A stretch of DNA of 33,653 nt from Nitrospiria bacterium (GTDB taxonomy: Bacteria > Nitrospirota > Nitrospiria > JACQBZ01): NCBI GenBank assembly GCA_035498035.1, contig DATKAN010000041.1, forward strand, positions 1 through 33,653. The letters run 5' to 3'. A program made the translations under genes and the position numbers. Shown here in pieces: positions 18,542 to 33,653 of this stretch; within the stretch, counting starts at the first letter, position 1; each line of letters begins with the position of its first letter. The notes below the pieces were generated by a model, which did no database searches, was not told the DNA's origin, and saw nothing but the letters and a program-made list of their open reading frames with translations.

Positions 18542-19423
18542 ATGTCCCTGCGCTCGAACACCCTCTTGACAACCTTAGGGTTCCTCCTCATTCCATCGAT
18601 GCTGGGTTCATCCCCGGCATGGTCGGGCGACTGGACGATGGCGTTTACGATTTCGGTTCCGGATTCCAATGCGGATGGGGGCCAGTTGGTCAACCGGCTG
18701 GAAGCCGGTGGTCTATCCACCGCAACGGATCTTTTTGACAACAATTCGGATGTGCTGGCCTTGTTGGCGGGGCCGGTTCAGGCCGCCTTTACACACGAGG
18801 ACGAGACCACCTACCCGCTTGGTCTCCAATTGCTGTGGCGGGATATTCGGGCGGATGGACTTCCGAAGAGCTGGACGATCAAGGTGGTCTCTCAACAAAA
18901 CGTGTCCCCGGTTTCCGTGGCTTGGACCCCTCCGCCGTCGATTGCATCGGACACCTGCCAAACGGGTTCGGTGAGATTTCAGGATCAGACGACCGGTCAG
19001 TCGATTGATTTGATGTCAGCCCCCGGTTATACCTATAGCAGTAACGGAACGGTCGGCAGTCCGGAAATCCGGTTCTTTACATTGACGGTCAGCCGCGTTC
19101 CGCAAAATTCACCCTCCGTGCCGACCGGTCTCGTGAGCAGCGGCGGCATTTCCAAGCTCCCCCGTTTTCATTATGTTCGATTGGCATGGAGGGCCGATAG
19201 CCCGACCGACCTGGCGGGCTACAATATCTGGCGCAGCAGGAGCAACGGAAGCGGGTATGTACGCTTGAATGCGGTCCCGTTCCTGAATAATTGGTATCTG
19301 GATAAACAGGTGAAGACGGGCACGACCTACTACTACGTGGTGACGGCGGTGGGGACGAATGGATGTGAAAGCGGCTTTTCAAAGCAGACGACGGCAACGG
19401 CTGGACAACCAGCCCTGCGGTAG
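18542..19423 (+). CDS. Exported protein with C-terminal fibronectin type III-like domain
   Basis: The 293-residue product has a signal peptide (LLTTLGFLLIPSMLGSSPAWS, cleavage near residues 28-29). Residues about 30-190 form a domain I do not recognise, opening DWTMAFTISVPDSNADGG and containing a DLFDNNSDVLALLAG segment. Residues about 200-285 are Fn3-like: FHYVRLAWRADSPTDLAGYNIWRS, then GTTYYYVVTAVGTNGCESG. GGGAG lies six bases before the ATG. Its last 65 bases overlap the possible start of the giant repeat protein gene, which implies translational coupling and a shared cell-surface role. That role is inference. Confidence 0.8.
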   Translation: MSLRSNTLLTTLGFLLIPSMLGSSPAWSGDWTMAFTISVPDSNADGGQLVNRLEAGGLSTATDLFDNNSDVLALLAGPVQAAFTHEDETTYPLGLQLLWRDIRADGLPKSWTIKVVSQQNVSPVSVAWTPPPSIASDTCQTGSVRFQDQTTGQSIDLMSAPGYTYSSNGTVGSPEIRFFTLTVSRVPQNSPSVPTGLVSSGGISKLPRFHYVRLAWRADSPTDLAGYNIWRSRSNGSGYVRLNAVPFLNNWYLDKQVKTGTTYYYVVTAVGTNGCESGFSKQTTATAGQPALR

Positions 19424-22400
19424 CTTCGGGGGCTTGATTCAGAAGATATCGCTTGTCGGATATCCCGGTTCATCTATTTTCAAAAAAGGCTTGTGTCCCG
19501 CAAACAGCACCGGTTTTTTATCGGCCCCTTCCTCGGTATTCTTCCGACATGTCACGCTGGCCCTCGCGGTGATGTTTTTTCCCGCCGCCTTGCTCGTTCC
19601 CGATAATGAAGCCGAGGCGGCGAACCGGTACTGGGTGGCGGCATCGCCAAGCAATTGGAACAGTACCGCTAATTGGTCCACGACCTCGGGCGGGGCCGGC
19701 GGTGCCAGTATTCCGGGTTCGGCCGATATCGCCATCTTTGATGCGAGCCGGATCGGGGATTGCGCACTAGATGCGATTGTGAACGTGGCGGGGATCAGTA
19801 TCGTGGCGGGCTACACGGGCACGATTACGCAGGGTGCGGTTACCGTAACGGTTGGTTCTACCGCGTACACACAAGCGGACGGCACCTTTGCCGGGAGTGC
19901 TGCCTCCATCACCGTCAACGGCGCGTTTTCTCTGAGCGGCGGGACCTTTACGTCTACTACCGGCACCCTGACTCTCTCCGGGAACGGCGGGTTTACCCAG
20001 ACCGGGGGGACCTTTGCCCCCAATAACGGCACCGTCACCTTTACCACCACCTCCGCCACCGTTGATGTTCCGGGCAGCATCACCTTTTATAATCTGACGA
20101 TCAATAAGAACTCAGGGGCGATTCTGACCATCGCCGCCGGGGATACCCTCGTTACGACCGGTGTTTTGAGCCTGTCGAATGGGAGGGCCGCAACCGGTAC
20201 GTTGGAGGCCCAGGGTGATGTGACCATAGGACCCGGGTGGGATACGTCCGGGCAGACGGCGCCCTTGCGGTTTACCGGGTCGGCCAATCAATCCCTCACG
20301 GTGAACGTTCTTAATTTATTACATCCCATTACAATCGATAAGACCGGAGGCAGCGTGAATGCCGGGACGACCTCGTTCACCATCCCCGGAACCTTTGATC
20401 TGGTCAACGGCGAATTCATATCGACCACCGGCACCCTGACCTTCTCCGGCGGCAGCGTTTTTACCCAGACCGGGGGTACCTTTACCGCCAATAACGGGAC
20501 CGTGGCCTTCACAACCACCGCCTCCACCATCGATGTTCCGGGCAGCATCACTTTTTATAACCTGACGATCAATAAGAATTCGGGCGCCGCCTTGACGATT
20601 GGCGCCGGGGATACCCTCATTACGACCGGCCTTTTGAGCCTGACCAATGGGGCGGCAGCCACCGGGACCTTAGAGGCCCGGGGTGATGTGACGGTAGGGG
20701 TCGGGTGGGATCCTATCGGGCAGACGGCGCCGCTGCAATTCACCGGGTCCGTCAATCAGGCCTTCGCGGTGAGCGCTCCAACCTTTGCCAATCCCATCAC
20801 GATCAACAAAACCGGGAACGGTGTGAATGCCGGGACGACCTCGTTCACCATTTCCAGCGCCTTTAATCTCGTCAGCGGCGATTTCACCTCAACCACGGGC
20901 ACACTGACGTTTTCCGGCGGCAGCGTATTTACCCAGACCGGGGGGACCTTTACCGCCAATAACGGGACCGTGGCCTTTACCACCACGGCGTCCACCATTG
21001 ATGTACCGGGCAGCATCACTTTTAATAACCTGACGATCAACAAGAATTCGGGTGCGGCTCTGACCATAGCCGCCGGGGATACCCTCATCACGACCGGCCT
21101 ACTGACCCTGACGAACGGGGCGGCGGCCACCGGGACCTTGGAGGCCCGGGGTGACGTGACGGTAGGGGCCGGGTGGGATGCCGCCGGACAGACAGCGCCG
21201 CTGCAATTCACCGGGTCCGTCAATCAGGCCTTCGCGGTGAGCGCTCCAACCTTTGCCAATCCCCTCATCACGATCGATAAAACCGGGGGCAGCGTCAATG
21301 CCGGGGCGACCTCATTTACAATCTCGGGCCCCTTTAATCTCGTCAACGGAACATTCACCTCCACCACGGGAAGCCTGACATTGAGCGGAGCCTTTACCCA
21401 GAGCGGCGGGGTATTCAACGGCGCTTCGGGCACGATCACGGTGAACGGAGCCTTTTCCTTGAACGGCGGGACCTTTACCTCCACCACCGGCCTATTGACG
21501 TTTTCCGGTACCGGCACTCCGTTCGCGATCGGCGGCGGCGCCTTTGCCCCTTCCACCGGGACCGTTCGGTATACCGGGAACGGACCGACCAATATCACCG
21601 CCGCCACCTATAACAACCTTCAGGTCATGCCAAGCGGAAACAACAGGACCCACACCTTCGCCGCCGGAACCCTGACCATCGGCGGCGACTTCACGGCGGG
21701 GAATGGGACCAATTCCAACATCGTCGTTACCGCCGCCGCAAATCCGACGATCCTGACAGTGAACGGTAACGTCGCGATCTCCGCCTTAACCACGCTCATA
21801 GCAAACGGCACAAACCCGTTGACCGTCGGAGGGTCTTGGTCCAATACCGGCACCTTTACTCATAGCAGCGGCACGGTAATTCTGAACGGCACGGCTCAAC
21901 AGACCCTGTCGGGGACGATGACCGGCACGTCGGCCTTTGGCACGTTGACCATTACGAACAATTCCGGCTCGGATCCGGTGACCGCCCCCTCGGTGGCCTT
22001 CTCGGCCGGTGCGACGGCCGCCACCGCCAATTTCACGACCGCGGCCACGAAGGTCCGGCTTAACGCCGGTTCGACCTTCACCTTTACCAATATTAACTTC
22101 GGCCCCGGTTCGGGCGCCCGCGTCCAGCTTTGGTCCTCCGTGCCCGGGTCCCACTGGAACCTGAACGTAACGGGCGCCCAAACCGTCCTCAACACCGATG
22201 CGAGGGATTCCGACGCCACCGGGAATATCATTAATGCGACCGATCCCTCCAACCTCGATTCCGGGAATAACCTGAACTGGAATTTCGGGGCGCAATCATG
22301 CAGCACCGCCCAAACCGGGCCCTGGAATGCGGCCAGCACCTGGAATGCACCCTGCAATGTCGCGGGCGGGCCCACGGGCGCGAACGCGGTTTACATCAAC

Positions 22401-25400
22401 AGCGGACATATCGTTTCGGTGACGGCCAATGCCGCCGCGTCCAATATCACGATGTATCCAAACGCGGCCGGTTCCGGAAACGGTCTTGCGATCAATTCCG
22501 GAATCAGCCTGGCCGTGGCCGGTTCAATAACTCTGAACGAGCCGACCTCGGCCACATCGGACTTGAGCGTCAATGGCGGCAATCTTTCGGCCGGGAACCT
22601 TTTTATCCGCGGGAGTTCGACGGCCGGTCTGTTCGCCACCGTGTCGATCGATACCGGAACGGTAACGATTTCCGGATCGGTTGCGTTCCTTGGGACACCC
22701 GCACAGGCCCGGCTGAACTTTACGGGTGCGGGAACCCTTGCACTCGGCGGCCATCTGGCCGATGGGGGAACGGTTACGGCCGCGGCAGGAAGCACGATCA
22801 ACTTTAACGGGGCATCGCCCCAATCGGGGGGAGGGTATAGCTACGCGATCCTCAAGGCGAACAATCCGGCGGGGGTGACCTTGACCGGCGCCGCCGCCGT
22901 CTCCACGCTGACCATCGGCGACGTGACGGCCAACAGCCTCTTCGACGACGGTGGATTCCAGGTTACGTCCAGCGGAACATTTAATCTCATCTCCGGAAAG
23001 TTCAGACTCGGAAGCGCCACGGTGGGGACGTCCTTCCCGGCCTTTACGACCATGAATCTTTCCCCGGGAACCACCGTTGAATACGCGGCCGGGGTGGGCC
23101 AGCCCGTGTCGGAGCTTCCTCCCTATCGCAATCTGACGATCAGCGGTAGCGGCGAGAAGACCCTTTCCGCTTCTCTCACCGTCAACGAGGATCTAACGGT
23201 GAATGATACCGGCGGCGCCTCGACCTTTACACTTTCCGGGGATAATACGTTGACGGTCAACGGGACACTCCGGGTCACGGGCACGGGGTCCGCACTTGTC
23301 GCGGCCCCCGCCAATACGCTTGTTCAAATTGTCGCCGGCAACGTGGCCGTCGATATCGGGGCCCGGATAGACGCAACCGGCCGGGGCTGCGGGGCCTCGG
23401 AGAGTTACGACTATGACACGACCGACGGGACGCCGGTCTTGCAGTGCCGGAACATCGGCGGCGGGGTGACGGCGAATTTCGGGGAAGGCGGGGACAGCAC
23501 GACGGACGGAGGAGGCGGGGCCGGCTACGGCGGGGCCGGAGGCTTGAGCGGGGGCGGAATCACGGGAGGATCCACTTACGGGATCGATCTGCTTCCGTTC
23601 GAAATGGGCAGCGGCGGCGGAAATGGATCCGCTCCGGGAGGAGCGGGAGGGGGTTCTCTTCGGTTACAGGTGACCGGCACCCTGACCCTGAACGGCATAA
23701 TTTCGGCGAACGGGAGCGACGGCAATCCCGACGTGCTTGGAACGGGCGGCGGCGGAGGAGGAGGAAGCGGCGGAGCCATCCGTATCAATGCGGGGACGGT
23801 CACCGGCGCCGGCAGTTTTCAGTCCAACGGGGGCCGGGGCGGAAATGGGACTTCCTTTGGAGGCGGCGGCGGGGGGGGTGGCCGCATTGCGGTCTTTATC
23901 GCTGCATCCAATACCTATACGGGTACCACCTCCTGCCTTGGCGGCGGTGGAGGGGCCGGACCCGGACCCGGGCACCCGGGTGCGAACAATCCGACCTGCA
24001 AGATCCTATTGGCCTTCCCCGCGTCAAGTCCCGATGGGATTATCGACGGGAATGGCGACAATGTTTACGGTGGAGTCGGGACCGGCGCCGGGGGGACCTC
24101 CACCCAGCTGACCACGAATGGATCCGCTTCTTATTCCATTCAAGTTCAAAATGACGGCGGCGTCGCCGGGTCGTATGGAGTAACCTGGACCCTTCCCGGG
24201 GCAGGCTGGAATGTAACGCTTGTGGATAATGTCACCAGTGCTGTGTATACGAAAAATTTTGTAACGCCCTCGATTAATCCCGGTGCCTCGAGGGCCTATA
24301 CCCTTATAGTCAAGCAGGGCTCGCCGAGTCCTCCCGATGGAACCTATAATGTGATTATGGATTTCCTCGTATTGAACGGAAGCGGCGGCGACTCCATCAA
24401 AGCCCTTATCGTGAAGTCCAATCAACGCCCGGATGGGATTATCGACGGCAGCGGGGGCAATGTGTTCGGACTGGCCGGCAGCGGCGCGGGCGGCCAGTCC
24501 AGCCGGACCGTGACGGGCGGTGTGGCGACGTCGTACAGCCTTTTCCTGCTCAATAATGAGACAAGCCCGGATACCTTCACCCTGAGTTGGAACACCCCTT
24601 CGGGATGGACCGTGGTCGTCAATGACGGATCGGCCGATCGGTCGTCCGGCTTTACCACCGCCCTTATCCCGGCGGGTGGAACGGCCCTGTATACCCTGGT
24701 GGTGACCCCGACGGTCACATCGACCCTGAATATCATCGTCGACATCGCCTCGACCACCACCGCTTATCTGGAAGACTCGGTGACGGCGATCGCCGTCCAG
24801 TACTCTATCCCGGCAGCCCCCCAAGCCTGCCTCGGGCCGGACAATCCTCCGGGGTCGGGCTGCCTGCTGTCTCCGTCGGCGATCAGTCCGACCCAGATCA
24901 AGCTTTACTGGGTGGACACCTCCAATAATGAGGACGGTTTCCGGATTGAACGCGCAATAAGGGTGGGCGGGGCCTGCGACACGGACGAGGTGTACGGGGT
25001 GATTTTCACATTGTTGCGGGATACGGTGGGGTCTCCCGGCACCGGCCAGGTCCTCGGTTACACGGACGGGGGACTGGCGCCGTTGACGGCGTACTGTTAC
25101 CGATTCCAAGCCTATAATCCGGCCGGCAACTCGGTCTATTCCGGGGCCGTATCCATATCGACGCTGCCGCCGGCCGAATTCCATGTTCCCGCGGCCGTTT
25201 CGGACCTGACGGTGAAGCCCGGAGACCAGACGCAGAACTCGATCACCCTGAGTTGGACAGCGCCGTCGGATGATAATGCGGTTCCGGGAGTTGGGCAGGC
25301 GGGCAGTTATGACCTGCGTTACGCCACCAGCCCCATCGTCGACGGCGGGGCAGGGGCCGGCCAGGTAGATTTCTCGGCGGCGACGTCGGTCCCCATTCCG

Positions 25401-26234
25401 GCCCCGAAGCTTGCCGGTAGCTTTGAAGAGGCCACCGTTTCGGGTCTGACGCCCAACACGATCTATTACTTTGCCTTGAAATCAGGCAACACGATCGGGC
25501 CCTCGGCCATGTCAAACAATGCGTATTGTTCCGGGACGACCACCCCCTGCGGCGACAACCCGACCGATGGAAGCTTGGCGGGTCGGACGGCGCTCCGAAC
25601 GAACCTCAATATGGTTTCGATTCCGTTGAATCCGAATCCTGCGGATCCAGACGGTGTATTCCATGACGATATAGGGGGAGTTCCGCAGATGTGGAATTGG
25701 AACTCATCCGGTCTGGGGATGGTCGAAGGGGTTGACGGCTGTTACGATCAGTATCCGGATTCTTCTATCGCGCCCTGCCTGGACATTACGGCCCTCGTTC
25801 CGGGAAAAGGCTATTTTATCCAAGGGGGCGGCAACCGGCCTGTGATTGATGTGCCGAGTCTTTCAACGGCGGTAGCTACCGCGAATTTTTGCACAGGTAG
25901 CAGTGTGGGAACCATTAACGGTTATTTGATTCCGTTGCAGCTCGGCTGGAACATGATCGGAGATCCCTTCACGAGCCTGCTGGATTTCAGCACTGTCTAT
26001 GTTCGACAGAACGGCAACGATGCGACGTGCGTAACCTATGGTACGGCGGTGTCTCCGAACAATTGGCTCGGAAACACCATTTATCAATTTGACGGTGTGG
26101 GATATAGCAATGGCCAAATGTTTTACACGGATCCCCCGGTCCTGGAACCTTGGAAGGGTTATTGGTTGTGGGTGATGAACAATAACGTCATCAACGGCAA
26201 CACCTATGAATTGATCCTTCCGACGCCTCCATAA
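19359..26234 (+). CDS. Giant secreted repeat protein (about 2290 aa), probable surface or matrix protein
   Basis: A hydrophobic segment at residues 65-80 with EAEA/A cleavage near 87-88 indicates export. The mature protein opens NRYWVAASPSNWNSTANWST, a known start of beta-helical surface proteins. Three tandem 155-156-residue repeats occupy about residues 212-678, and a second GPWNAASTWNAP-type module lies near 980. A very glycine-rich stretch (about 1365-1545) carries runs of up to nine Gly. Two domains of about 130 residues each begin DGIIDGxGxNV (near 1559 and 1692), two Fn3-like domains follow (about 1815-2060), and the C-terminal domain (about 2075-2291) has LNMVSIPL, GWNMIGDPF and paired KGYF/KGYW motifs. 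The start is uncertain: ATG 19359 lies inside the previous gene, and TTG 19434 or TTG 19491 give more normal signal peptides. The function is not known; adhesion or matrix building is inferred. Confidence 0.85.
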   Translation: MDVKAAFQSRRRQRLDNQPCGSFGGLIQKISLVGYPGSSIFKKGLCPANSTGFLSAPSSVFFRHVTLALAVMFFPAALLVPDNEAEAANRYWVAASPSNWNSTANWSTTSGGAGGASIPGSADIAIFDASRIGDCALDAIVNVAGISIVAGYTGTITQGAVTVTVGSTAYTQADGTFAGSAASITVNGAFSLSGGTFTSTTGTLTLSGNGGFTQTGGTFAPNNGTVTFTTTSATVDVPGSITFYNLTINKNSGAILTIAAGDTLVTTGVLSLSNGRAATGTLEAQGDVTIGPGWDTSGQTAPLRFTGSANQSLTVNVLNLLHPITIDKTGGSVNAGTTSFTIPGTFDLVNGEFISTTGTLTFSGGSVFTQTGGTFTANNGTVAFTTTASTIDVPGSITFYNLTINKNSGAALTIGAGDTLITTGLLSLTNGAAATGTLEARGDVTVGVGWDPIGQTAPLQFTGSVNQAFAVSAPTFANPITINKTGNGVNAGTTSFTISSAFNLVSGDFTSTTGTLTFSGGSVFTQTGGTFTANNGTVAFTTTASTIDVPGSITFNNLTINKNSGAALTIAAGDTLITTGLLTLTNGAAATGTLEARGDVTVGAGWDAAGQTAPLQFTGSVNQAFAVSAPTFANPLITIDKTGGSVNAGATSFTISGPFNLVNGTFTSTTGSLTLSGAFTQSGGVFNGASGTITVNGAFSLNGGTFTSTTGLLTFSGTGTPFAIGGGAFAPSTGTVRYTGNGPTNITAATYNNLQVMPSGNNRTHTFAAGTLTIGGDFTAGNGTNSNIVVTAAANPTILTVNGNVAISALTTLIANGTNPLTVGGSWSNTGTFTHSSGTVILNGTAQQTLSGTMTGTSAFGTLTITNNSGSDPVTAPSVAFSAGATAATANFTTAATKVRLNAGSTFTFTNINFGPGSGARVQLWSSVPGSHWNLNVTGAQTVLNTDARDSDATGNIINATDPSNLDSGNNLNWNFGAQSCSTAQTGPWNAASTWNAPCNVAGGPTGANAVYINSGHIVSVTANAAASNITMYPNAAGSGNGLAINSGISLAVAGSITLNEPTSATSDLSVNGGNLSAGNLFIRGSSTAGLFATVSIDTGTVTISGSVAFLGTPAQARLNFTGAGTLALGGHLADGGTVTAAAGSTINFNGASPQSGGGYSYAILKANNPAGVTLTGAAAVSTLTIGDVTANSLFDDGGFQVTSSGTFNLISGKFRLGSATVGTSFPAFTTMNLSPGTTVEYAAGVGQPVSELPPYRNLTISGSGEKTLSASLTVNEDLTVNDTGGASTFTLSGDNTLTVNGTLRVTGTGSALVAAPANTLVQIVAGNVAVDIGARIDATGRGCGASESYDYDTTDGTPVLQCRNIGGGVTANFGEGGDSTTDGGGGAGYGGAGGLSGGGITGGSTYGIDLLPFEMGSGGGNGSAPGGAGGGSLRLQVTGTLTLNGIISANGSDGNPDVLGTGGGGGGGSGGAIRINAGTVTGAGSFQSNGGRGGNGTSFGGGGGGGGRIAVFIAASNTYTGTTSCLGGGGGAGPGPGHPGANNPTCKILLAFPASSPDGIIDGNGDNVYGGVGTGAGGTSTQLTTNGSASYSIQVQNDGGVAGSYGVTWTLPGAGWNVTLVDNVTSAVYTKNFVTPSINPGASRAYTLIVKQGSPSPPDGTYNVIMDFLVLNGSGGDSIKALIVKSNQRPDGIIDGSGGNVFGLAGSGAGGQSSRTVTGGVATSYSLFLLNNETSPDTFTLSWNTPSGWTVVVNDGSADRSSGFTTALIPAGGTALYTLVVTPTVTSTLNIIVDIASTTTAYLEDSVTAIAVQYSIPAAPQACLGPDNPPGSGCLLSPSAISPTQIKLYWVDTSNNEDGFRIERAIRVGGACDTDEVYGVIFTLLRDTVGSPGTGQVLGYTDGGLAPLTAYCYRFQAYNPAGNSVYSGAVSISTLPPAEFHVPAAVSDLTVKPGDQTQNSITLSWTAPSDDNAVPGVGQAGSYDLRYATSPIVDGGAGAGQVDFSAATSVPIPAPKLAGSFEEATVSGLTPNTIYYFALKSGNTIGPSAMSNNAYCSGTTTPCGDNPTDGSLAGRTALRTNLNMVSIPLNPNPADPDGVFHDDIGGVPQMWNWNSSGLGMVEGVDGCYDQYPDSSIAPCLDITALVPGKGYFIQGGGNRPVIDVPSLSTAVATANFCTGSSVGTINGYLIPLQLGWNMIGDPFTSLLDFSTVYVRQNGNDATCVTYGTAVSPNNWLGNTIYQFDGVGYSNGQMFYTDPPVLEPWKGYWLWVMNNNVINGNTYELILPTPP
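19992..21392 (+). repeat. Three tandem in-frame repeats of 468, 468 and 465 bases
   Basis: Units begin at 19992, 20460 and 20928, each with codons for FTQTGG, and the third ends at 21392. A partial unit (FTQSGG) starts at 21393. Each unit encodes NNGTVxFTTT, DVPGSITF, NLTINKNSGA, GDTLxTTG, ATGTLEAxGDVT and NAGxTSFTI in the same order. Units 2 and 3 are closer to each other than to unit 1, pointing to recent duplication or gene conversion. Nearly identical DNA within one gene makes the unit number prone to change. Confidence 0.9.
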
Positions 26235-26266
26235 AAAGAAAAAGGGAAGCAGCCGTATTACGTTCC

Positions 26267-26296
26267 TTGACAAGGCCCTTTGATCTAACGTATATT
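26267..26296 (+). promoter_or_regulatory. Sigma70-type promoter of the pyr operon
   Basis: A perfect TTGACA at 26267-26272 and TATATT at 26291-26296 are separated by 18 bases. The expected transcript start, near 26303, is just before the PyrR-binding hairpin, so the RNA begins with the regulatory fold. Confidence 0.75.
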
Positions 26297-26304
26297 AAAA
26301 CTCG

Positions 26305-26336
26305 CCTTTAAATCGAACCCGGTGAGGTTCGAAAGG
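26305..26336 (+). promoter_or_regulatory. PyrR RNA-binding hairpin (anti-antiterminator) in the pyr leader
   Basis: The lower stem CCTTT/AAAGG (26305-26309 with 26332-26336) carries the one-sided bulge AAAT. The upper stem CGAACC/GGTTCG (26314-26319 with 26326-26331) closes the hexaloop CGGTGA. This matches the Bacillus PyrR-site plan: TTTAA on the 5' side, a purine bulge, and a CNGNGA loop flanked by CC and GG. PyrR bound to UMP is known to stabilise this hairpin. The pyrR gene itself lies 193 bases downstream. Confidence 0.85.
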
Positions 26337-26412
26337 GAGTGGAAATGAAACCGATCGGCTCGACAATCGAACCTTTCTTGTGCCCGGACGGGGCGTCAAG
26401 AGAGGTTTTTTT
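26325..26412 (+). terminator. pyr attenuator: antiterminator pairing and intrinsic terminator
   Basis: The terminator stem pairs AACCTTTCTTG (26370-26380) with CAAGAGAGGTT (26397-26407). Above an internal loop it adds GCCC/GGGC with loop GGACG, and seven Ts follow at 26406-26412. The alternative antiterminator pairs AGGTTCGA (26325-26332) with TCGAACCT (26367-26374), eight perfect base pairs. It uses the 3' half of the PyrR hairpin and the 5' half of the terminator, so the structures are mutually exclusive. The expected logic is that high UMP lets PyrR hold the hairpin and transcription stops. Confidence 0.85.
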
Positions 26413-26450
26413 GTGCCTAAAGGGCATTCATGAAAGCCGAAATGAAAATT

Positions 26451-26479
26451 CAGCGAGCTCGGCGAGCGAGAGGGGGAGG
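26451..26479 (+). repeat. Dispersed G-rich intergenic motif, copy 3
   Basis: CAGCGAGC, three variable bases, then GCGAGCGAGAGGGGGAGG, as on the minus strand at 16391-16420. It lies between the pyr terminator and pyrR and is followed by two hairpins. One is CTCCGTCCG paired to CGGGCGGAG (26480-26503, one wobble); the other is GGGGC paired to GCCCC (26504-26520). The second ends ten bases before the pyrR ATG and could affect its translation. Confidence 0.5.
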
Positions 26480-26529
26480 CTCCGTCCGGCCCTGCGGGCG
26501 GAGGGGGCGACGCAAGCCCCAATAAGAGG

Positions 26530-27075
26530 ATGACCGAACCGCGCGAAAGGATGGTTCTGGATGCGTTGGGAATGAACCGGGCGCTAAGCCGCGTGGCCCA
26601 TGAGGTGATCGAGCGGAACCGCGGCCTGAGCGATTTGACCCTCGTCGGAATTCGGACCGGCGGTGTCCATTTGGCCCACCGTCTGGCCGCGGGACTCAAG
26701 GAGATCGAAGGGGTCGTTCTGCCCGTCGGCGCCTTGGATATCACGCTCTACCGGGATGATCTTAACAAAAAACGGGAGCAGCCCACGGTTCGTAAGACCG
26801 AAATCGGCTTCGACATCACGGACAAAATCGTGATCCTGGTGGATGACGTCCTCTTCACCGGCCGGACGATTCGCGCCGCCATGGATCAGCTGATCGACTT
26901 CGGGAGGCCGCGCGCGATTCAGCTGGCGGTCCTGATCGATCGTGGTCATCGGGAGCTGCCCATTCGCGCCAACTACGTCGGCAAGAGTTTGCCGACGGCC
27001 GTGGATGAAAAGGTAAAGGTTTTGTTGAAGGAAGAAGGGGAAGAAGACAGGGTGATTATAGAAAATGGGACTTAA
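26530..27075 (+). CDS. pyrR: PyrR: pyrimidine operon attenuation regulator / uracil phosphoribosyltransferase
   Basis: This 181-residue protein matches PyrR along its length: [36 protein letters not shown], the PRPP-binding [10 protein letters not shown] at 104-113, and [20 protein letters not shown]. PyrR binds pyr leader RNA when UMP is high and also has uracil phosphoribosyltransferase activity. Basic residues needed for RNA binding are plausible here, since a matching RNA site precedes the gene. ATG 26530 fits the family N-terminus although AAGAGG directly abuts it. ATG 26551 is an alternative. It overlaps pyrB by 11 bases. Confidence 0.95.
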
Positions 27076-28084
27076 GACGAAGGACATGATCAGCATCAAG
27101 GACCTCGACCGTGACGAATTGCGGCTGGTCCTCGATACCGCCGAATCCTTTAAAGAGGTCGGCACTCGGGATATCAAAAAGGTTCCGACCCTTCGTGGAA
27201 AGACCGTGGTCAATCTGTTCTTCGAGCCCAGCACTCGAACCCGCACCTCCTTCGAGTTGGCGGCCAAGCGCCTCTCGGCGGATGTCGTGAATATTTCCGC
27301 CTCCACCAGCAGCGTGGTCAAGGGCGAAACGCTTCTCGACACGGCCCGGAATATCGAGGCGATGCAGGTCGATCTGATCGTCGTTCGTCATCCCTGTGCC
27401 GGGGCCCCGGCCCTTTTGGCCAGGAAGGTGACCAGTGCCGTGATCAACGCCGGGGATGGGATGCATGAGCATCCCACGCAGGCCCTTTTGGATCTGTTCA
27501 CCATCCGTGAGCGCAAGAAGACGCTGGAAGGTCTCACGGTCGTGATCGTCGGGGACATTCTCCACAGCCGGGTCGCCCGATCGGCGATCCAGGCCCTTAA
27601 CACGGTCGGGGCGATCGTCCGAATCGTGGGTCCGCCCACAATCATCCCGCGCGAGATCACGCACTGGGGCGTCGAGGTTTTTTATCAATACGAGGAGGCC
27701 CTCAAAGGCGCGGACGTGATCATGATCTTGAGGCTTCAGTTGGAACGTCAGGAACAATCCCTCATCCCGACGCTCCGGGAATACTCGACCTTGTACGGAC
27801 TGACGGCGCGCCGGCTCGCGATGGCCAAGGATGATGTGCTGGTGATGCATCCGGGACCGATCAACCGGGGCGTCGAGATCAGCCCGGAGGTGGCGGATGG
27901 TCTATCCTCCGCGATCCTGTCCCAGACCACCAACGGCGTGGCGGTCCGGATGGCCGTGCTCTACCTGTTATCCATGGGAGTCCGTGCGGACGGACAAGCC
28001 GCCGAGACTCCGATCTCCCCTTCCCCATCCTCCGGCCAAGACAAGCCCGATCCCCGCCCATTAAACCAGGGGCGCGAGACATGA
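27065..28084 (+). CDS. pyrB: Aspartate carbamoyltransferase catalytic subunit
   Basis: Forms N-carbamoyl-aspartate from carbamoyl phosphate and aspartate, the first committed step of UMP synthesis. The carbamoyl-phosphate loop [13 protein letters not shown], the [12 protein letters not shown] loop, HPTQALLD, and [12 protein letters not shown] near the C-terminus are all present. The 339 residues exceed the usual 305-315 because of a low-complexity tail of about 30 residues, rich in Ser, Pro and Gln (from about residue 308). No pyrI regulatory subunit or inactive pyrC partner is visible. It overlaps pyrR at the start and shares ATGA with pyrC at the end. Confidence 0.96.
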
Positions 28085-29382
28085 ATCTGCTGATCCGAAA
28101 CGGCCGGATCGTCGATCCGGCCCATCGACGGGATGAGGTGACGGATCTCCTCATCGAAAACGGAAAGATCAGCCGCATCGGCAAGGCCTTGAAGTCCGAC
28201 GGCCCGAAGTCCGAGACCCAGACCATCGACGGAACGGATAAATGGGTCGTGCCGGGCCTCGTGGATGTCCATGTTCATCTGCGGGAGCCCGGTTTTGAAT
28301 ACAAGGAAACCATCAAAAGCGGGACCGAGGCGGCCGCGGCCGGAGGGTTTACCTCGGTGTGTTGCATGCCCAATACCATACCGGTCAACGACAATCAGGC
28401 CGTGACTCGTTTGATCCGGGAAAAGGCCCGGCTGGAAGGGCGGGTCCATGTTTTCCCCATCGGGGCGATCACAAAAGGATCAAAGGGGGAAGAGCTGTCC
28501 GAGATCGGAGATTTGGTCGGGGCCGGCTGCGTGGCGATTACGGACGACGGGAAACCGGTGATGAACAGCGGGGTGATGCGCCGGGCGATGGAATATTCCC
28601 TGGCCTTTGATCTGCCGGTGATCGATCATTGCGAGGACGAGCACCTGATGGACGGCGGCGTGATGAATGAAGGGGTCGTTTCGATGGAGCTGGGCCTCCG
28701 GGGCATCCCCGCCGCCGCCGAGGAAGTGATGGTCGCCCGCAACCTGATCCTGGCCGAGTTGACCGGGGCGAGGCTTCATCTCGCTCACGTCAGCACCGCG
28801 GGGTCGGTTCGTCTGGTCCGCGAAGCGAAGAGCCGCGGAGTCCGGGTTACGGCCGAGACCTGTCCGCATTATTTCAGCCTGACGGAGGAGGCGGTGCGAG
28901 GGTACAACACGTGCGCCAAGATGAACCCCCCGCTTCGGACCCATCGGGACCGCGATGCGATCCGACAGGGTTTGAAGGACGGGACGCTGGAGGTGATCGC
29001 GACGGACCACGCGCCGCATTCGGAGGATGAAAAGAATCGCGAGTTCGATCTGGCGCCCTTCGGTATCGTCGGGCTGGAAACGGCTCTCCCCTTGACCCTT
29101 CGCTTGGTGGAGGAGGGCGTATTGTCGCTGGACGAGGCCGTGGCGAAGCTGACGGTTCAACCCGCGCGGGTCATGCGGCTGAACAAAGGCCACCTTGGAA
29201 TCGGGGCGGATGCGGATCTCTGTCTGATCGATCCGGAGGCGACGTGGACCGTCGATCCAAGCCGCCTCCGTTCGAAAAGCAATAATACCCCTTTTGCCGG
29301 GTGGCGGATGAAGGGGCTGGTCGTGATGACGATCGTGGACGGCCGGGTCGTCTATTCCACCGAGGAGGTCCGGGCGACATGA
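28081..29382 (+). CDS. pyrC: Dihydroorotase, type I
   Basis: Cyclises carbamoyl-aspartate to dihydroorotate. The 433-residue length and [15 protein letters not shown] (zinc ligands H64 and H66) put it in the long type I class. [33 protein letters not shown] and the catalytic Asp in [14 protein letters not shown] are intact, so it is likely an active enzyme and not a non-catalytic pyrB partner. The start overlaps the pyrB stop (ATGA), and the end overlaps the next ATG in the same way. Confidence 0.96.
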
Positions 29383-29882
29383 AGATCCTGACCTCTCTGT
29401 TTGTCTGGCTGGAATTGCTCGGCCTGGGCGTCTGGGTCGGCGGGATGGTGATTTTGGGGGCCGTGGTCGCGCCCACCGTGTTCAATACCGTAAAGCCGGT
29501 TGAAATGGCGGGGGAGGCGATGAGCCTCGTATTCCACCGGTTTAACGGCGAATGGGTGTTTGTGTGCATCGGCCTCGTGGTCCTGGGTTTCATCGGGAAA
29601 TGGCTGACGGCCCCGCCGCAGGGAATCCGGATGAGAATCGAGGCGACCCTCGTCATCCTGTTGGTTGGGTCCGGGCTTTACATCGGAGCGATTCTGGGGC
29701 CGAGAATGCAGGAGCTCCGCCAGATCACCCTGACCGATCGTTCCAACGGTGCGGCGGTCGCGGAATTTGATCTCGACCACAGGCGGTCGGTGCAGTTGTT
29801 CTCGGTCAACATCCTCCTGGGGCTGGCCGTGTTATGGATGAATTCCAGGATCTCCGGGGCTTCAAATCGTAAGGAGGGGTGA
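29379..29882 (+). CDS. DUF4149/TMEM205-like four-helix membrane protein
   Basis: The 167 residues hold four hydrophobic helices: about 3-32 ([20 protein letters not shown]), 56-73 ([15 protein letters not shown]), 87-104 ([18 protein letters not shown]) and 139-152 ([14 protein letters not shown]). Between helices 3 and 4 is a conserved-looking hydrophilic part with DLDHRRS. The GVWVGGMV...APTVF start and the FNGEW segment resemble the DUF4149/TMEM205 family, whose biochemical role is unknown. ATG 29379 overlaps the pyrC stop (ATGA), and its TGA overlaps the carA ATG, so it is translated as part of the pyr operon. Confidence 0.75.
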
Positions 29883-31012
29883 TGGAAGGCCACGGACATC
29901 GTTCGTCGCGTCGAAAGGCGATCCTGGCCCTGGCTGACGGACGGGTATTCAAAGGATACGGCTTCGGCGCCCAGGGGGAAGGCGCGGGAGAGGTGGTTTT
30001 CAACACCTCGATGACGGGTTATCAGGAAATCCTGAGCGATCCGTCGTACCGCGGTCAGCTGGTCACGATGACCTATCCGCTGATCGGGAATACCGGCGTC
30101 AACGATGAAGACGTCGAGTCGTCCAAACCCTTTCTGTCCGGTTTCATCGTCCGGGAATATACCGACGATCCGAGCAACTGGCGCGCGACCGGCGGCCTGG
30201 ACGACTATCTCGCCCGGAACGGGATTGTCGGAATCCAGGGGATCGATACGCGTGCCCTGACCAAACATATTCGGGACGTGGGGGCTCAACAAGGGATCAT
30301 CTCCACCGTCGAATCGGATGAGAAACGGTTGGTGAAGCGGGCGGCCGAAGCGCCCGGCCTGGTCGGACGCGATCTGGTCAAGGAAGTCAGTTGCGAAAAA
30401 CCCTACGAATGGACGGAAGGCAGCTGGGGATCTCCAATCGCAAATTTCAAATCCCTCAAGGTGGTCGTGTACGACTTGGGCGTAAAACGGAATATCCTCC
30501 GTCGTCTGATCGACGTCGGCTGCGCGGTCACGGTCGTTCCGGCCCGGACGAAGGCGTCGGAAGTCCTGTCCATGAATCCGGACGGCGTCGTCTTATCGAA
30601 CGGTCCGGGCGATCCGGAAGGCGTGCCCTACGCCATCGAAGCCGCCCGATCGTTGATCGGGAAAAAGCCGGTTTTCGGGATCTGCCTGGGGCACCAGATC
30701 CTCGGTTTGGCGATGAACGGCAAGACTTATAAATTAAAATTCGGTCATCACGGCGGGAATCAACCCGTCATGGACCTGACGACAAACAAGGTCGAGATTA
30801 CCGCCCAGAATCATGGATTCGCCGTGGATGTGGACTCGATCGGGTCCGAAATCGAGCTGACCCATCTCAATCTCAACGACCGCACCGTGGAGGGAATGCG
30901 CCATCGAACGCTGCCGATCTTCTCGATTCAGTATCATCCGGAGGCCTCCCCGGGGCCGCACGACGCCGGGTATTTGTTCAACCGATTTGTGGAGATGATG
31001 AAAAATGGATAA
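29882..31012 (+). CDS. carA: Carbamoyl-phosphate synthase small (glutaminase) subunit
   Basis: Supplies ammonia from glutamine to CarB for carbamoyl phosphate. The N-terminal CPSase small-chain domain ([20 protein letters not shown] and [15 protein letters not shown]) is followed by a class I amidotransferase with GICLGHQ (nucleophile C268) and [13 protein letters not shown]. The length of 376 is standard. ATG 29882 has AAGGAGGGG two bases upstream and overlaps the preceding TGA. GTG 29879 is an alternative start that adds one residue. It overlaps sppA by eight bases. Confidence 0.96.
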
Positions 31013-32000
31013 GAGAAATTTTTTGAGGGCGTACGGCCGTATGCCCCTACGGTTCATTGTTCTCGCGTTCCTCACCGTATGGTTGTCCGGCTGTATTTTT
31101 AACATTCGTATTCCACAGCCGGCCGAACCCTTGCAGGAAACACGGGTGGCCGGTGCGGGAGCCGATAAGATCGTCCTGATGGATCTGTCCGGAACGATCT
31201 CGGAGGAGGAGAAAGGATCAACGCTTGCGCCTGAGCCGAATATGGTGGCTCAATTCAAAGAAGAGTTGAAAAAAGCCGCGGACGATTCGGCCGTGAAGGC
31301 CGTGGTGCTTCGGATCAACAGTCCCGGCGGGACGGTCACGGCCTCGGACATCCTCCATCACGAGGTGGAAGTTTTTAAGAAACAGACCGGCAAGAAGGTC
31401 ATTGTGAGCATCATGGATCTGGGTGCTTCGGGCGGGTATTATGTCGCGGTCGCGGGCGACAAGATCGTGGTCCATCCCACGACGGTGACCGGAAGCATCG
31501 GCGTGATCATGCTGACCGTAAATGTCCAGGGGCTGCTGGAGAAGATCGGCGTGACCGGGGCGGCCATCAAGTCGGGTGATAAAAAAGATATGGGTTCACC
31601 GCTGCGCCCGATGACGGAGGAAGAGCGGCGGCTTTTCCAGGGGATCATCGACCAGATGTATGATCGGTTTGTGTCGGTTGTCGCGGCCGGGCGGAAGGGG
31701 ATGACGGTGGACCAGGTCCGGAAGGCTGCGGACGGACGCGTCTATACGGCACAACAGGCGCTCGACCTGGGGCTGGTGGACGGAATCGGATACCTCGATG
31801 ACGCGATCCAACTGGCCAAGACCGAGGCCGGACTGAGCAAGGCCCGCATCGTGACCTATGTCCGGCCGGGCAGTTATAAGGACAATATTTATTCCCAAAT
31901 ACCCTCGGGCTCGCCCCAGACCGTGAATCTCGTCAATCTGGATCTGCGCTCCTTCGTCCAGGGCGGCACGCCGCGGTTCATGTACCTATGGGCCCCGTGA
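31005..32000 (+). CDS. sppA: Signal peptide peptidase SppA-like serine protease, predicted lipoprotein
   Basis: This 331-residue S49-family protease has the Ser/Lys dyad S142 ([11 protein letters not shown]) and K194 ([10 protein letters not shown]). Their spacing of 52 residues equals that of the Bacillus enzyme. [14 protein letters not shown] and the TVTGSIGVI region are typical. The N-terminus is a lipoprotein signal: a basic start, a hydrophobic stretch and a lipobox LSGC with C30. The family normally has a transmembrane anchor instead. SppA degrades cleaved signal peptides in the membrane. The short form acts as an oligomer. It starts within the last eight bases of carA, so it is translationally coupled to the pyr operon. 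Confidence 0.92.
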
Positions 32001-32329: not shown

Positions 32330-33653
32330 ATGCCGAAGCGAACCGATATAAAGAAAATCCTCCTCATCGGCTCCGGGCCGATCGTGATCGGGCAGGCTTG
32401 CGAGTTCGATTACTCCGGAACCCAGGCCTGCAAGGCCCTCAAGGAAGAGGGCTATCAGGTCGTGCTCGTCAATTCCAACCCGGCCACGATCATGACCGAT
32501 CCTGAACTGGCGGACCGTACCTACATCGAGCCGATCATCCCCGAGATCATCGAGAAGATCATCGAGCAGGAACGGCCGGACGCCCTCTTGCCGACGATGG
32601 GCGGCCAGACGGCTTTGAACATCGCCATGGTGTTGGCCCGGGACGGCATTCTGGAGAAATACGGCCTGAAACTCATCGGGGCCAATTACGATGCCATCAA
32701 TAAGGCCGAGAACCGGGATATTTTCAGACAGTTGATGTGGAAAATCAATCTCAAGGTGCCGAACAGCGCCTATGCCAGAACCCGGGACGAGGCGATGCAC
32801 GTCATCGAACAAATCGGTTATCCGGCGATTATCCGGCCGTCCTTTACCCTCGGAGGCACGGGGGGGAACATCGCCTATAACCGAGAGGAGCTGGTTGAGC
32901 ATGTGGACTGGGGGCTTCAGGCCAGTCCGACCGGGGAAATCCTGGTCGAGCAGTCCGTCATTGGCTGGAAGGAGTTTGAACTCGAGGTGATGCGGGATCG
33001 GAAGGACAACGTCGTGATCGTCTGCCCGATCGAAAATCTCGATCCGATGGGGATCCATACCGGCGACAGCATCACGGTGGCTCCGGCGCAGACGCTGACC
33101 GACAAAGAGTATCAGATTATGCGGAACGCCTCCATCGCCATCATGCGGGAGATCGGCGTGGACACGGGCGGATCCAACATCCAGTTTGCCGTCAATCCGG
33201 AGAACGGTGAAATGGTCGTGATCGAGATGAACCCGCGGGTTTCCCGCAGCTCGGCGCTGGCCTCGAAGGCGACCGGGTATCCGATCGCCAAGATCGCGGC
33301 GAAGCTGGCGATCGGATATACCTTGGATGAGATTCCGAACGACATCACCAAAGTGACCCCGGCCAGCTTCGAGCCGACGATCGATTATGTCGTGGTCAAA
33401 TTCCCGCGGTTTGCCTTCGAGAAATTCCCGCAGGCGGACGCGACCCTCACGACGCAGATGAAGTCGGTGGGGGAAGCGATGGCGATCGGCCGGACGTTCA
33501 AGGAGGCCCTGCAAAAGGCGATCCGGTCCCTGGAGATCGACAGCTTCGGTTTGGAGCAGCGCCTACACCGCCTGAAACCGAGGGGGGACAACGGCGAGAA
33601 CGACAAAGATCTGATCCGCTCCAGGATCGAAACGCCCGGATGGGACCGTCTTT
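32330..33653 (+). CDS. carB: Carbamoyl-phosphate synthase large subunit, N-terminal 441 residues (cut by window end)
   Basis: The first half of CarB makes carboxyphosphate and phosphorylates carbamate with ammonia from Car[21 protein letters not shown] is the opening phosphate-binding loop. [10 protein letters not shown], the ATP-grasp stretch [35 protein letters not shown] and [20 protein letters not shown] are all canonical. The frame is still open at base 33653; the family has about 1070 residues, so about 630 are missing. ATG 32330 gives the usual [17 protein letters not shown] start. The gene closes the visible part of the pyr operon. Confidence 0.97.

Follow-up and report, generated by a model that had tools for sequence, protein, structure and literature searches.

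The closest known counterparts of the element considered here are the attenuators AR1-AR3 of the Bacillus subtilis pyr operon (Rfam family RF00515, the PyrR binding site), and for that species both the PyrR mechanism and the binding consensus ARUCCAGAGAGGYU are available (PMC7430163). A survey of RNA motifs in 255 genomes counted 211 PyrR sites (RF00515) with a moderate lineage spread (PMC3766115), and the word Nitrospir- does not occur in the text of that survey. Elements from Thermus, from Chloroflexota and from further phyla besides Firmicutes, seen here as model matches, are likewise recognized by RF00515. PyrR attenuators in Nitrospirota were not found reported in a literature search of partial coverage, and an earlier notice is possible.

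The window analyzed in this work is a stretch of 33,653 nucleotides from a Nitrospiria bacterium (contig DATKAN010000041.1 of assembly GCA_035498035.1), and all the features named below lie on its forward (+) strand. Its pyrimidine operon is preceded by a leader which shares with AR1-AR3 a hairpin with a purine bulge and a CCTT/AAGG foot, a terminator, and the location of the site before pyrR, while the top of the hairpin, AACCCGGUGAGGUU, resembles the ARUCCAGAGAGGYU-type top from B. subtilis (PMC7430163). There are several differences compared to AR1-AR3: the Nitrospirota genome has one attenuator instead of three, its score is below the gathering threshold, the hairpin begins at the presumed start of transcription, and the antiterminator is shorter and lineage-specific. 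The loop differs as well, being mostly CTGTGA or CGGTGA here as against CAGAGA in B. subtilis.

It is highly probable, judging from the sequence, that this leader is a PyrR-dependent transcription attenuator controlling the genes pyrR-pyrB-pyrC-(DUF4149)-carA-sppA-carB. What is observed comprises the parts of the attenuator and their conservation, a covarying hairpin, and the joint presence of the element with pyrR and with PyrR's basic residues.

The pyrimidine operon and its leader

The first gene of the operon, pyrR (26530-27075), codes for a PyrR regulator/uracil phosphoribosyltransferase (NF003549, 237.6 bits with a cut-off of 138; matches to PDB PyrR chains with E-values down to 4.5e-62), in agreement with the expectation that pyrR follows the attenuator. 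The closest named relatives are groundwater 'Nitrospirae' MAGs, whose PyrR proteins are 86-94% identical. The next genes are pyrB, coding for aspartate carbamoyltransferase (27065-28084), pyrC, coding for dihydroorotase (28081-29382), a DUF4149 gene (29376-29882), carA, coding for the small subunit of carbamoyl-phosphate synthase (29879-31012), an sppA-like signal peptide peptidase gene (31005-32000), and carB (32330-33652), which runs off the window. Inside the pyrimidine operon carA is flanked by the DUF4149 gene and the sppA-like gene. The region upstream of the operon (19359-26234) is occupied by a gene for a highly repetitive, probably secreted protein with the length of 2291 residues.

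The pyrR start codon is located 118 bases beyond the terminator, with a copy of a 70-bp dispersed repeat (26451-26520) in between. The repeat has 42 matches in the genome with 74-100% identity, and it is also found between the attenuator and pyrR in one sister species, being absent in three other aligned relatives. Its copies carry a hairpin with co-changing arms, e.g. CTCCGTCCGGC/GCCGGCGGAG and CTCCATCCGCC/GGCGGATGGAG, and by its sequence it appears to be REP-like; no Rfam family matched it when the window was scanned at gathering thresholds.

The covariance search with the PyrR-element model, suggested along with the original prediction, resulted in a full-length match to RF00515 at 26301-26414 with a score of 41.2 bits (E-value 1.4e-4, 281 bases searched), which is under the gathering score of 54 bits. 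The next best Rfam family had an E-value of 2.3, and no family reached its gathering threshold anywhere in the window. The 2.67-Mb genome contains a single RF00515 match, located directly before pyrR-pyrB-pyrC. As this is the only good Rfam match and the only one in the genome, the element is more than a chance resemblance; with a score below the threshold, though 56 out of 396 Nitrospirota genomes do pass it, it should be regarded as homologous to the members of RF00515 and not as a formal member of the family.

Promoter and predicted PyrR binding hairpin

The promoter predicted ahead of the hairpin is present as a sigma-70-type sequence (26267-26296) which, read directly, consists of the −35 hexamer TTGACA (26267-26272), an 18-bp spacer and the −10 hexamer TATATT (26291-26296). 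It agrees with the consensus at 11 out of 12 positions, and there is no other promoter-like site within 26150-26560. The same layout, TTGACA-N17/18-TAnnnT at an equal distance from the hairpin, is found in most Nitrospirota leaders. In 61 leaders the −10 hexamer is separated from the CCTTTAA hairpin foot by 6-8 bases, with TTTAA retained across the leaders listed for this spacing, so that the RNA should begin with the hairpin itself. The promoter spacing and the fold energies suggest a start of transcription at 26303-26305, that is 7-9 bases past the −10 hexamer and at the hairpin foot, and the spacing in the 61 leaders thus favors the earlier proposal that transcription starts within a few bases of the hairpin.

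The predicted PyrR binding hairpin (anti-antiterminator, 26305-26336), indicated by the RF00515 match and by covariation, lies where it was originally proposed and has the CGGTGA loop, fitting CNGNGA, noticed there. The foot is formed by CCTT (26305-26308) and AAGG (26333-26336), and is followed by an internal bulge (26309-26312) made purine-rich by AAA at 26310-26312. The 7-bp upper stem, TCGAACC (26313-26319) with GGTTCGA (26326-26332), ends in the conserved CC...GG top which carries the hexaloop (26320-26325). Tentatively, the hairpin could be lengthened by pairing of ACTC (26300-26303) with GAGT (26337-26340), provided that transcription starts at or before 26300; as read from the sequences, this extension is seen in the same family with two double changes.

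For the comparison with relatives, 92 leaders were anchored on the motif. The CNGNGA loop occurs in 92 of the 92, as the anchor itself demands, and its C, G and GA positions are invariant; leaders L068 and L120, which are outside this set, have a changed loop. Pairing is not required by the anchor, and 88.5% of the cells at the seven stem positions are paired, compared to 20-47% when the arms are slid by one to three positions. Double-change cells number 121 as against 45.8 in shuffles. Within the family of the organism, the stem TCGAACC/GGTTCGA is replaced by TCGGACC/GGTCCGA, the loop being unchanged. The conservation anticipated for related genomes is found in the hexaloop, which is kept, and in the stem, which covaries, but it does not extend to the exact alternative pairing.

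Terminator and candidate antiterminator

The intrinsic terminator, which had been predicted to end in seven Ts, is indeed present at about 26369 to 26412 and consists of a stem and a T7 tail (26406-26412). Its fold has an energy of −26.1 kcal/mol (z = −5.6 compared to shuffles), and a terminator is located before the first gene in 92 out of 93 related leaders.

The candidate antiterminator can be drawn in two registers, and the one drawn first is, by sequence, one of these two possibilities. In register A, suggested by complementarity and fold energies, AGGTTCGA (26325-26332) pairs with TCGAACCT (26367-26374). These 8 bp are complementary in the window, as was originally noticed, but the pairing is not conserved, being whole in two of the seven family members, preserved at seven of its eight pairs in a third one (L062), and broken in the others. 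In register B, suggested by the family comparison, GAAAGG (26331-26336) pairs with CCTTTC (26373-26378), which overlaps the 5′ arm of the terminator; its core, AAGG with CCTT, is kept in all seven family members and the full pairing in six of them.

Leaders with the CTCATC/GGTGAG stem form a group in which the hairpin's 5′ arm is repeated in the terminator arm (CCTTCTCACC), and this makes the antiterminator longer. This GGT-stem group is the only one to gain support from a within-group permutation, with 15 out of 500 permutations reaching the observed value. When antiterminator partners were swapped between relatives, the pairing fell only slightly. A Fisher test of GAGGC/T versus G/A before CCTT (p = 3e-5) was set aside, as it takes no account of relatedness and the corresponding permutation within groups gave no signal.

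Fold energies were computed on the RNA before completion of the terminator. For an RNA beginning at 26300 the hairpin has −23.9 kcal/mol versus −20.3 kcal/mol for the antiterminator, and for one beginning at 26303-26305 the values are −19.8 and −20.6 kcal/mol, respectively. Because the two folds come within about 1 kcal/mol of each other, a closeness that a switch requires, only with a start at about 26303-26305, the start site would decide the balance of the switch. Among 86 leaders the hairpin is favored by a median of 3.5 kcal/mol; it is more stable than the antiterminator in 74 of them, and in the remaining 12 the antiterminator equals or exceeds it. These computed energies make the alternative fold in the window plausible. 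By analogy, kinetics or pausing may contribute to the switch, NusA pausing having been reported to matter in B. subtilis (PMC7430163).

We infer from the sequence where transcription starts, which antiterminator is used, that PyrR binds and that termination depends on UMP, and together these points suggest the following mechanism. RNA polymerase would start at about 26303-26305, and the 5′ end of the transcript would immediately fold into the PyrR hairpin. With plentiful UMP, the PyrR-UMP complex would bind the CNGNGA loop and the upper stem and hold the hairpin, allowing the terminator to fold and transcription to end. With low UMP, PyrR would release the RNA, and the hairpin's 3′ arm would then pair with the terminator's 5′ arm in register A or register B, so that the terminator would be blocked and the operon read.

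The hairpin might also be a PyrR site acting mainly on translation or RNA stability, the terminator being constitutive or serving the upstream gene. This would suit the poor conservation of the antiterminator and its computed stability, which falls short of that of the hairpin in the majority of relatives, and the upstream open reading frame, ending at 26234, has no terminator-like site listed on its strand. However, the promoter falls between that gene and the hairpin, the strong terminator in nearly all the leaders has a 5′ arm whose CCTT complements the hairpin foot, and the distant pyrR start codon, with the repeat in front of it, is beyond the hairpin's reach. We therefore find control at the level of translation or stability quite improbable, and prefer PyrR-dependent attenuation of transcription.

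PyrR residues

The basic residues of B. subtilis PyrR that bind RNA are reportedly those of Savacool and Switzer (2002). The chain of PDB 4p82 was used as the reference row for residue positions, with first residues and numbering which we take to be those of that protein. In the Nitrospirota PyrR proteins accompanied by the element, the positions expected to bind RNA are almost invariably occupied as expected in that case: R15 in 92 out of 94, R19, H22 and H140 in all 94, R141 in 88 (K in the rest), K152 in 90, and R or K at position R146 in 93. Nine PyrR relatives without a detected element possess R15 in three cases, R19 in four, H22 in one and K152 in three, with R141 kept in all nine. The PyrR of the window, going by its sequence, retains the basic residues of the presumed RNA-binding face. 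Several of the expected RNA-binding basic residues are lost in the PyrR proteins of loci L013, L015, L022, L023, L025 and L026, in which no element was detected; the records of L022 and L023 are labelled Nitrospirae.

There is only a slim chance that the element is a relic, inherited but having lost its function in this lineage. Its RF00515 score, the lowest in the family and low for the phylum, and the dispersed repeat in the leader would fit such a view, but the stem changes by compensation within the family while the loop, the promoter and the terminator stay, and the basic residues of PyrR are kept. Regulator-free control sensitive to UTP, by leader-peptide pausing or reiterative transcription as in the enteric pyrBI, the hairpin then serving to pause the polymerase, is hardly credible even for a pyrimidine operon with a terminator ahead of its genes, since the transcript does not begin with a run of Ts, the CNGNGA loop and the covarying stem would have no role, and PyrR is encoded immediately downstream.

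On the whole, conservation, covariation and the PyrR residues lend good support to the core of the original prediction, a PyrR attenuator ahead of pyrR with transcription starting at the hairpin, whereas the exact antiterminator is not conserved and the transfer claim discussed below fails.

Distribution and ancestry

The element was detected in all seven genomes of the family and in 294 out of 396 Nitrospirota genomes (E ≤ 0.01), with the 56 mentioned earlier exceeding the Rfam cut-off; the PyrR protein scores above its own cut-off in 365 of the 396. In the Nitrospirota loci checked, the hairpin lies upstream of pyrR in the same direction, and the fragment includes pyrR in every case except L027, which is truncated (1652 bases versus about 3100). 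Second RF00515 matches occur in eight genomes, and seven of these loci were examined, L128, located at a contig end, being left out. One of the seven, L127, is the second locus of genome G161 and contains the promoter, hairpin, terminator, pyrR and pyrB, so in this Nitrospirota genome pyrR occurs at two loci, and a PyrR hairpin accompanies both. The possibility of several targets per genome was rejected, as L127 is a second pyrR-pyrB copy and the other six are weak matches without a nearby PyrR hairpin.

Outside the phylum, RF00515 matches were obtained in 56 out of 78 Omnitrophota-type, 31 out of 101 Chloroflexota-type and 20 out of 148 Desulfobacterota-type genomes, these labels being taken from the titles of central loci (Omnitrophota, Chloroflexi and Desulfobacteraceae), and the Thermus composti control matches too. 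Eight loci from two of these phyla have pyrR on the same fragment. In the PyrR tree, the sequences cluster by family, the deep forks are not resolved and Nitrospirota need two label changes; PyrR may have had a single origin in Nitrospirota.

It was initially suggested that the find either extends the system beyond Bacillus-type bacteria or dates its transfer. Neither part can be maintained, the element being phylum-wide in the Gram-negative Nitrospirota and present in several other non-Firmicute phyla. A recent transfer from Firmicutes was rejected as unsupported, given the number of Nitrospirota genomes with the element and a PyrR tree showing no sign of such an event. We lean slightly towards the view that PyrR attenuation is ancient in many phyla (Nitrospirota, Omnitrophota, part of Chloroflexota and Desulfobacterota) and has been under-counted because the Rfam cut-off passes a minority of the elements; the Nitrospirota form would be a compact one, whose hairpin starts at +1 and in which the start site governs how the switch is balanced.

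The PyrR switch is widespread outside Firmicutes, and the about 300 leaders make up a ready set to refine the RNA model. The PyrR residues, kept with the element and lost without it, allow co-evolution of protein and RNA to be tested cleanly. Very probably, Nitrospirota control their pyrimidine synthesis by the RNA-protein switch that Bacillus uses.
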